DNA from: Rudanella lutea DSM 19387 | GTDB lineage: Bacteria; Bacteroidota; Bacteroidia; Cytophagales; Spirosomataceae | NCBI RefSeq assembly: GCF_000383955.1 | Contig: NZ_KB913013.1 | Span: 4,917,694 to 4,981,693 of the forward strand | Direction of reading: 5' to 3' | DNA: 64,000 nucleotides | Shown here: positions 7,233 to 61,422 of the stretch, piece after piece | How positions within the stretch are numbered: the stretch's first letter is position 1 | How the letters are laid out: every line of letters begins with the position of its first letter | Program-made: the position numbers and the translations under genes | Notes under the pieces: model-generated | What the model was told of the DNA's origin: nothing | What the model saw: only the letters and a program-made list of their open reading frames with translations | Databases searched by the model: none

Positions 7233-8888
7233 GTGTCCTCTCTCAACCCACATACCGCTGTTCTGACCCCCCAAACAGCGGCCCATTTGCTCCGGCGGGC
7301 GTCGTTTGGGGCGACATCGGCCGAGGTAGCCGAGTTTGTGGGGCTTACAGCGGGTCAGGCGGTGGAGCGGCTGGTGAATAATGCAAACTATGCTCTGCCG
7401 CCCCCCATCGACCTCAACGATGCCAGGTCCACCGTGGGGCAGCCCATTCGTACTATTCCGTACGATGGCGACCGCAATTCGGAGTTGGGCTATTTTGTGT
7501 CGTACTGGTGGCTGGGCGTGATGCTGGGTCAAAACCAGCCGATTGGTCTGCTCGATAAACTGACCTTGTTCTGGCAAAATCACTTCGTAACTACCCGCGA
7601 GGGCGTCGACGATTATCGGTTCATCTGGCGGTATCTGCACCTGCTGCGTACGCATGCGCTGGGCAACTTCCGAACGTTCCTGATTGAGGTGACCAAAGAC
7701 CCGGCCATGCTCAAATATCTCAACGGCAACGAAAACGAGGCTGGTTCGCCCAATGAGAACTTCGGCCGGGAGTTGCAGGAGTTGTTTACGGTCGGGATTC
7801 TCGACCCCGCCGGGCAGTACAACTACACCGAAGACGACGTGAAAGCGGCCGCGCGGGTGCTTACCGGCTGGAAGTTCAGCAACTATTGGGTGAGTGGCTC
7901 CACCACCATCGGCACCACCTTCGACCCTGCCAAACACGACACCACCGACAAGGTATTTTCGGCCAGTTATAATCATGCCGTGATCCGGGGGCGGAGTGGC
8001 CCCACGGCGGGCGACGATGAGCTGAACGACCTGGTGGCCATGCTGCTGACCCACCCGCAAACGGCCCGGTTTATCTGCCGTAAGCTTTACCGTTGGTTCG
8101 TTAATCCGAATGTAACCCCCGAGGTCGAAACGGCCGTGATTGAGCCGTTGGCCCAATTTTTTGCCTCGCCGGGTAACGATTGGGCCATTCGGCCGGTGCT
8201 GGAAAAACTGCTCACAAGCGACGTGTTTTTTAGCCCCCAAAATCGGGGAGCCATGATCAAATCGCCCGTGGAGCTGGTGGTGGGCACGTTGCGCCAGTTA
8301 CAGCTACCCCCGCCCGACATGGTCACCCGCCCGGCCTCGTACCGGAAGTACATGGATATTTTTTACTGGCGGCTTCGCGACCTTGGGCAGCCGCTGCTCG
8401 ATCAGCCAACGGTGTTTGGGTACGAGCCGTATTACCAGACGGGGTTCTCTAAAATCTGGATCAACACCACCACCATTGCTCTGCGCGGGGCCCTGATCGA
8501 TTATCTGGTGCAGGGCTATTTTGAGGTCGAACCGGGGTACCGGCTCAAGCCCGACTGGGTGGCCCGGATCGAGGCCATTCAGCCTAATTTTTCGGATGTG
8601 CCCCCGCTAATTCCCACCAACCCGCCTACGGGCACGCGGGCCGTAACCTGCGAAGAAGTAGTGGCGGCCCTGCTCGACGGTGTGTTTGCTACCGACCTGT
8701 TTGCGAGTCAGACGGATTTTCTGATCGATAAAATCATGATGCAGGAGATTCCCCGGCTGTCGTGGGAGTTTGAGTGGAATGCGTACCGACGGGACCCTGC
8801 CGATTCGTACCGCCGAAATACGGTGCTCTGGCGGCTCGAAAACCTCATGAAATTCGCCCTCCGCATGGCTGAGTACCATGTCGTATGA
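7233..8888 (+). CDS. DUF1800 domain-containing protein (copy 2), no DUF1501 partner
   Basis: This 551-aa paralogue of the 1676-3349 gene shares its whole layout (AAHLLRRASFGA, GLLDKLTLFWQNHF, GRELQELFTVG, C-terminal RMAEYHVV). I chose the GTG at 7233 because it aligns with the N-terminus of copy 1 and no in-frame ATG lies nearby; longer frames upstream overlap the kinase. Some nucleotide tracts are identical to copy 1, for example about 54 nt around 2866-2919 and 8416-8469. The stop sits in an ATGA like copy 1, but no DUF1501 gene follows. Instead the last codons form the left arm of a perfect 27-bp inverted repeat. Function unknown. Confidence 0.85.
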   Translation: MSSLNPHTAVLTPQTAAHLLRRASFGATSAEVAEFVGLTAGQAVERLVNNANYALPPPIDLNDARSTVGQPIRTIPYDGDRNSELGYFVSYWWLGVMLGQNQPIGLLDKLTLFWQNHFVTTREGVDDYRFIWRYLHLLRTHALGNFRTFLIEVTKDPAMLKYLNGNENEAGSPNENFGRELQELFTVGILDPAGQYNYTEDDVKAAARVLTGWKFSNYWVSGSTTIGTTFDPAKHDTTDKVFSASYNHAVIRGRSGPTAGDDELNDLVAMLLTHPQTARFICRKLYRWFVNPNVTPEVETAVIEPLAQFFASPGNDWAIRPVLEKLLTSDVFFSPQNRGAMIKSPVELVVGTLRQLQLPPPDMVTRPASYRKYMDIFYWRLRDLGQPLLDQPTVFGYEPYYQTGFSKIWINTTTIALRGALIDYLVQGYFEVEPGYRLKPDWVARIEAIQPNFSDVPPLIPTNPPTGTRAVTCEEVVAALLDGVFATDLFASQTDFLIDKIMMQEIPRLSWEFEWNAYRRDPADSYRRNTVLWRLENLMKFALRMAEYHVV

Positions 8889-8933
8889 GCTGTCATCTTT
8901 CTAAACAAGATGACAGCTCATACGACATGGTAC
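8873..8933. repeat. Perfect 27-bp inverted repeat (7-nt loop) spanning the DUF1800 stop codon
   Basis: The left arm (8873-8899) contains the last codons and stop of the DUF1800 gene. The right arm (8907-8933) is its exact reverse complement, and the loop is TCTAAAC. No poly-T follows directly; an A-rich stretch and a second hairpin do. It may be a terminator part or the scar of a template-switch event at the place where a DUF1501 gene would be expected. Confidence 0.9.
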
Positions 8934-8940
8934 AACGAAA

Positions 8941-8972
8941 AAAAGCACCCTATCTTTCGACAAGGTGCTTTT
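8941..8972. terminator. Bidirectional terminator between convergent genes
   Basis: Arms AAAAGCACC and GGTGCTTTT are separated by a 14-nt loop, with A-rich sequence on the left and T-rich on the right. It can serve both the DUF1800 gene and the convergent holin-like gene. Confidence 0.75.
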
Positions 8973-8996
8973 CTGGAAGATCAAAACGGGGCTTGC

Positions 8997-9386
8997 TTAC
9001 CGACCGGGAGCCAGTACGGCTACGTGCCCGGCTTCGCGCATAGGCTCACTCGGGGCCGACCGGTCGATCAGGGTACCGGCAACCGCAACGGCCAGGGCAA
9101 TAACGAGGGCAGGCCAGAAACCATGAATCGTGAAGCTATCCATAAACTTGTCGATCAGCTTGAGCAGCAGGGCTGTAACCACAAGCCGGACCAGCCCCGT
9201 CAGTAAAAAGAACGTGACTAAGTTGAGCGGAAAGGCCAGCAGCCAGCCCACCAGAAAGTTGAGGATGCCGAGAATCAGTGCGATGAGTACGGCCGTACCG
9301 AAGCTCTTTACTTCGATTTGGGGCATGACGTAAGCAAGGCCGAAAATGACGGCGGCATCGAGCAGGAGATGTAGGATGAAATTCAT
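8997..9386 (-). CDS. Phage-holin-4-superfamily-like small membrane protein (PF04020 type)
   Basis: This protein of about 129 aa begins MNFILHLLLDAAVIFGLAYV and has four hydrophobic helices, with IALILGILNFLVGWLLAFPLNLVTFF in the middle. This matches the small chromosomal family annotated as phage holin family 4 / YvlD-like. The ATG at 9386 starts the first TM helix; the frame stays open upstream to 9548, but that extension has no family similarity. There are no phage genes around it, so it is probably a normal inner-membrane protein of unknown role. The C-terminal tail (after LIDRSAPSEP) is hydrophilic. Confidence 0.75.
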   Translation of the reverse strand: MNFILHLLLDAAVIFGLAYVMPQIEVKSFGTAVLIALILGILNFLVGWLLAFPLNLVTFFLLTGLVRLVVTALLLKLIDKFMDSFTIHGFWPALVIALAVAVAGTLIDRSAPSEPMREAGHVAVLAPGR

Positions 9387-28140: not shown

Positions 28141-28145
28141 AGGTG

Positions 28146-28230
28146 AAAGAGCGAAAGAGTGAAAGGTGAAAGAATGCGGGTGTTCATCAGCGCTCTTTCA
28201 CTCTTTCACTCTTTCACTCTTTCGCTCTTT
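28146..28230. terminator. Bidirectional hairpin between the amidase gene and giant C
   Basis: The arms 28146-28165 and 28211-28230 are perfect 20-bp inverted copies made of GAAAGAG(T/C)G words, enclosing about 45 nt. The hairpin lies between two convergent stop codons (28140 and 28236). Confidence 0.75.
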
Positions 28231-61387: not shown

Positions 61388-61422
61388 AGAGATGACATCT
61401 CTCCAAACGAGATGTCATCTCT
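61388..61422. terminator. Hairpin between the TSUP and RND genes
   Basis: A 14-bp perfect stem (AGAGATGACATCTC / GAGATGTCATCTCT) has a 7-nt loop, TCCAAAC. A third copy of AGAGATGACATCT lies at 61354-61366, so an alternative stem is possible. The hairpin lies between convergent stop codons. The loop resembles that of the 8873-8933 hairpin (TCTAAAC). Confidence 0.75.

Follow-up and report, generated by a model that had tools for sequence, protein, structure and literature searches.

A gene-end hairpin in Rudanella lutea: very probably a copy of a dispersed palindromic repeat remodelled by template switching

The window, a 64,000-nucleotide stretch of the Rudanella lutea DSM 19387 genome (hereafter G000; contig NZ_KB913013.1, positions 4,917,694 to 4,981,693), holds a DUF1800 gene and a convergent neighbour with two hairpins between their coding sequences, the first of which reaches into the end of the DUF1800 gene. 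In window coordinates, the features are as follows:

7236-8888, + strand: DUF1800 gene with a putative start (PF08811, E 1.9e-93), whose end forms part of the left arm
8873-8899, + strand: left arm, made up of the DUF1800 coding end and stop (8873-8888) and then the rest of the core left arm
8887-8919, + strand: core of a dispersed repeat, 33 nt, with 13-bp arms and a 7-nt spacer, matched by covariance model R1
8900-8906, + strand: spacer TCTAAAC, inverted with respect to the orthologous GTTTAGA of R. paleaurantiibacter (G001)
8907-8933, + strand: right arm, in which the core right arm is followed by an inverted copy, lacking in G001, of the DUF1800 end
8941-8972, no strand assigned: separate short hairpin with A/T-rich ends and 14-nt arms that are 86% complementary, kept in G001
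8997-9386, - strand: convergent neighbour, Phage_holin_4_2 (PF04020, E 2.2e-19)
61388-61422, no strand assigned: the window's other copy of the repeat, which has the basic 35-nt form with 14-bp arms

An earlier note on this DNA had reported a perfect 27-bp inverted repeat with a 7-nt loop, and we find exactly this: two arms of 27 nt each, 100% complementary (27/27), around the spacer at 8900-8906, the longest of the 13 inverted repeats that the window yields with arms of 16 nt or more and a distance no greater than 60. The RNA of 8868-8985, which includes the next hairpin, is predicted to fold at -60.4 kcal/mol (z = -12.48), a value equalled by 0 of 200 shuffles, and no perfect arm of 14 or more arose when the bases of the first five sources in each genome were shuffled. 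The note's description of the left arm as the last codons and stop of the DUF1800 gene holds for 16 nt (8873-8888: the last base of a Glu codon, TAC CAT GTC GTA and the stop TGA) and fails for the remaining 11 nt, which lie downstream of the stop. A known RNA family was sought at the arms and set aside, as only two microRNA models matched, far below their gathering scores, which we read as typical of any long hairpin. The short hairpin at 8941-8972, which sits between the two convergent genes and is predicted to fold, is more likely than the 27-bp hairpin to be the transcription terminator, a role that is itself predicted; a simple terminator scan of the locus found none and left this hairpin unflagged, and no T tract directly follows the 27-bp stem. 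Elsewhere in the window, overlapping inverted repeats built from GTGAAAGAG-like units occupy 28143-28230, with similar units in two further fetched loci (L140, 4611-4676; L150, 4924-4970).

The inner part of the hairpin is a dispersed palindrome of about 35 nt. A search of relatives for the gene end gave many short extra matches to the hairpin middle; pattern searches of G000 with the inner stem gave 11 copies and a wider pattern 20, and covariance model R1, built from 11 copies, found 53 distinct places in G000 and 48 in G001 (E <= 0.01; 57 and 54 rows before both-strand duplicates were taken out). As summarised from the located copies, the basic unit has 14-bp arms and a 7-nt spacer, and reads AGAGATGWCATCTY, TCYRAAC, RAGATGWCATCTCT. 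A stricter pattern located 48 copies in G000, 41 in G001, 5 in the relative G002 and 13 in 'Flavobacterium sp. SUN052', within fetched loci that cover part of each genome. Arms of 13-14 bp are the most frequent; among copies with arms of at least 13 bp, however, arms of at least 20 bp occur in 18/44 in G000, 7/37 in G001 and 1/11 in SUN052, where chance would give about 0.01, 0.009 and 0.003. The long arms of G000 reach 20-35 bp through perfect locus-specific sequence, and this extra stem varies from locus to locus. Outside the genus, 5 of 117 sampled genomes of the family gave a single weak match each under strict filters of the covariance model, matches that we take as chance because their loci lack the core pattern. 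Transfer of the repeat to Flavobacterium was considered and dropped: at two loci (L106 and L093, NZ_JAPQNS records) the SUN052 flanks show 78-86% identity with Rudanella DNA across several hundred bases, so its genus label is probably wrong and we claim no distant transfer.

Copies of the repeat sometimes occur as doublets that resemble REP doublets, 51-89 nt apart (in one case 154 nt), with six pairs in G000, six in G001 and one in SUN052 (for example L150, 9969-10087; L126, 10043-10127; L157, 9938-10036). In three species the repeat lies just upstream of a gene that by eye is endonuclease III-like (L117, 9995-10061; L181, 9982-10052; L106, 1230-1310), with perfect arms of 30-37 bp and outer sequence that differs between species, widely so in SUN052; here a hairpin has persisted in a 5' region. 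Another dispersed palindrome, with arms around GAGCCCCGAAGGGGCGTAAC, is present in G000 and G001 (L122, 17456-17508; L165, 11432-11486; L167, 14321-14375; L178, 6091-6153).

Comparison of the DUF1800 locus among relatives separates the parts of the hairpin. In G001, the gene end is followed by the core with 9-bp arms, the spacer GTTTAGA and then the downstream hairpin, and the outer right arm is absent. The two spacers agree at 2/7 positions when read directly and at 7/7 when one is inverted. The left arm at 8873-8899, which is probably the source, or template, arm, aligns over its full length with the G001 gene end. The reverse complement of this arm together with the inverted spacer equals window 8900-8933 exactly (34/34), and the G001 homolog of that 34-nt source matches at 32/34; the copied arm carries both of the bases that separate the G000 from the G001 gene end, so it would have been made, or remade, after those changes. 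In the relative G003 and in SUN052, the DUF1800 end is followed by a convergent holin-type gene (by eye) and we found no hairpin with arms of at least 8; SUN052 retains a kinase coding sequence upstream (by eye). The comparison of this junction in close relatives, which the earlier note had proposed, thus came out differently by relative, with the core and an inverted spacer in G001 and the hairpin missing in G003 and SUN052. The same two genomes speak against the note's suggestion, which we have abandoned, that the hairpin arose at the deletion of a DUF1501 gene, as they have the same convergent neighbour without the hairpin, and the core is a repeat dispersed genome-wide.

We consider it very probable that the hairpin is a copy of the dispersed, REP-like palindrome of about 35 nt, lying between convergent genes and remodelled by replication template switching. 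A nascent strand arriving at the hairpin would move to the complementary strand at the matching arm, copy back through the spacer, the arm and the DUF1800 end (34 nt) and then return, leaving a flipped spacer and a new outer right arm, both of which are predicted by a single switch. In passages of PMC8604942, an inverted spacer combined with arm homogenization is the signature of a template switch between strands, and passages of PMC8794818 propose that template switches create and maintain perfect hairpins. Since spacer inversion implies a switch between strands in published models, the switch was probably of this kind; that one event, on this lineage, lies behind both changes is also our inference. 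The direction of change at the DUF1800 locus is likewise our reading: loss of the outer arm in G001 is possible, because its core is reduced to 9-bp arms, and G003 and SUN052, which lack the element, are unable to polarise the event. The earlier note's proposal that one arm was copied by template switching is supported by the exactly inverted G001 spacer and the absent outer right arm, and the outer arm is explicable without any benefit to the cell.

Template switching is well supported, and its signature, as read from the sequences, recurs at other copies of the repeat, whose two arms often change in step. Among 30 copies scored from the 48 located, 13 spacers are inverted between G000 and G001 and 17 are not (18 went unscored, 15 for want of a flank pair and 3 for want of a hairpin), although L126 was anchored on the wrong hairpin, so that the cautious count is 12/29; two other comparisons do show an inverted spacer at L126, and L134 has two G001 counterparts, both inverted. 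A second scoring of 33 copies gave 10 flipped, 12 the same, 2 multiple and 9 without a match, and a third, of 49 copies, gave 12 flipped, 14 the same, 1 tie, 4 diverged and 18 without an ortholog. From the reciprocal side, 31 G001 copies gave 15 flipped and 16 the same, with 15 extension positions changed in pairs, 2 one-sided and 9 with a gap on one side. Position by position, 360 core arm positions are identical in G000 and G001, 10 differ in both arms with pairing retained, 15 differ in one arm and 22 have a gap in one arm; for the extensions the corresponding figures are 108, 16, 33 and 39, and 2 further positions differ in both arms and do not pair. These totals include the 23 positions of L126 from the wrong hairpin. 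That many arm differences are one-sided rather than paired shows that homogenization is not continuous and that arms also decay between events. Individual loci illustrate the range of change: the 33-bp arms of L156 differ at one position, on one side, and its 7-nt spacer is inverted, whereas between L117 and L181 a number of substitutions are matched in both arms, and so is a length change of 2 nt. At two copies at L147, one flank is intact and the other overwritten (17/17 against 10/17 at one copy, 3/6 against 6/6 at the other).

Hairpins that do not fit the core pattern provide a comparison: 4 of 24 scored, from 72, are inverted, against 12/26 for the repeat (Fisher p = 0.035), in locus pairs that are not a random sample, since the loci were fetched around repeat matches; one of the four flips (L144, 2642) is doubtful, since other repeats overlap it, and the hairpins scored as 'same' include one core variant (L127, 1802). 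Short hairpins without the core whose loops are inverted in G001 are found at L118 (1329-1353 and 1420-1443) and L148 (8092-8123), the last of terminator type.

Frequent spacer inversion might also be produced by a dedicated site-specific recombinase that flips spacers at a lox-like site, in which inverted arms of 13 bp stand on either side of an asymmetric 7-nt spacer. The core sites of tyrosine recombinases have a geometry that resembles the repeat's arms and asymmetric spacer, and this likeness, together with inversion at 13 of 30 scored loci, is what such an enzyme would account for. It would leave unexplained the locus-specific extension of the arms and the matched changes outside the core, and hairpins outside the core pattern invert too, including the terminator-type one at L148, so we regard a recombinase as very improbable. 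We consider it more improbable still that an older, gene-specific hairpin received the repeat in its loop. Such an insertion would explain a common core within locus-specific stems, but it makes the outer arms older than the core, and at the DUF1800 locus the core occurs in G001 with no outer right arm, while both are missing from G003 and SUN052. The two copies at L147 tell the same way, as the core found there in G001 has one flank that does not match the arm in G000.

The placement of the copies raises a further alternative, in which the long stem is selected as an RNA hairpin, for termination or 3'-end protection, and its arms are kept matched by compensatory point mutations. By crude ORF calling, intergenic copies favour convergent gaps (23/41 against a background of 102/440 in G000; 22/40 against 71/334 in G001) and are rare in gaps between divergent genes (3/81 against 141/774). 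Copies with arms of at most 15 bp often have a one-sided T-rich tail (12/24 in G000, 13/32 in G001 and 4/12 in SUN052, against 14/384, 15/328 and 4/104 background sides), and among copies in tandem contexts, taken together, 12/15 have the tail 3' of the gene next to them. The stem at the DUF1800 end is very stable, and the DUF1800 ortholog of G002 has its stop codon within a perfect hairpin of 18 bp and a loop of 4 nt, unrelated to the Rudanella lutea one (L006, 1977-2016). The T tails on many short-arm copies indicate that some may serve as terminators; tails are rare, however, with longer arms (2/24 in G000 and 2/9 in G001), the DUF1800 copy has none and is followed by a terminator-like hairpin of its own, and G003 and SUN052 manage without a hairpin at this gene end. 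Compensating changes, which the earlier note had named as evidence against a template-switch origin, are indeed present at other copies, but often together with inverted spacers and once with a paired length change, and template switching yields such changes too. Because stepwise compensation predicts neither inverted 7-nt spacers nor paired length changes, these features favour switching, and selection of the long stem by such mutations seems to us unlikely.

Beyond the DUF1800 locus, remodelling by template switching invites a broader interpretation, on which we are evenly divided: that the repeat is a nursery of gene-specific hairpins, where switching is so frequent that loop orientation has been nearly randomised between sister species and the opposite arm has time and again acquired the end of a neighbouring gene. 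If this is true, neither perfect stems nor 'compensatory' changes require selection on RNA, and covariation would be an unreliable sign that an RNA is functional in genomes of this kind. Matched changes in two arms, which are usually taken as proof of a selected RNA, can stem from a mutation process. The process has been described in laboratory reporters, in yeast and in rRNA, and is met here in dozens of natural copies within one bacterial genus. The stages are visible side by side, from the basic stem through the flipped loop, one-sided overwriting and the extended perfect stem to extension into a coding end, and copies at different stages would allow the rate of template switching, its polarity and its dependence on enzymes to be measured in wild bacteria. 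Although the mechanism is already known, the repeat family and its activity appear to be new: the matches listed in one literature library, including passages of PMC12306157 and PMC3733652, describe neither this repeat nor Rudanella repeats.

Among known systems, REP elements (PMC3733652) and REPINs (PMC3116915) resemble the Rudanella repeat, which is likewise a short palindrome with tens of copies, most of them intergenic and some in close pairs. REP elements are recognised as 20-40-nt palindromes in many extragenic copies, and this is what we find at 53 places, with 41 of the 48 located G000 copies in intergenic gaps by crude ORF calling. In PMC3733652, REPs carry a GTAG or CGTC tag, whereas the Rudanella repeat has neither at a fixed place (GTAG lies near a core end in 9/107 copies, CGTC in 0/107), and it differs from the REPs so described in its longer perfect stems and its locus-specific outer stems. 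Y1 transposase (PF01797) has 18 matches across four genomes. We found no copy of the repeat near Y1-transposase genes in the eight loci examined, up to 1.5 kb on each side, and, judged by its coordinates, none of the R1 places comes within 4 kb of any of the four PF01797 matches of G000; mobilisation by a RAYT was accordingly rejected, with zero copies at those eight transposase loci.

Intrinsic terminators offer a second comparison, resembling the repeat in their position after genes and in a one-sided T-rich tail, which 12/24 short-arm G000 copies have; unlike them, 34/48 G000 copies, the DUF1800 copy included, lack such a tail. There is a likeness in process to template-switch mutation at inverted repeats, for which passages of PMC8604942 report perfect arms made from imperfect ones and inverted spacers, both in one event at yeast REG2, as we propose here, and to the loop inversions of bacterial rRNA hairpins reported in passages of PMC8794818, which parallel the Rudanella spacers. 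In contrast to the cases in those passages, the Rudanella hairpins belong to a dispersed bacterial repeat, with arms that grow by up to about 20 bp, a captured gene end and, at 13 of the 30 loci scored, spacers in opposite orientation in the two species.
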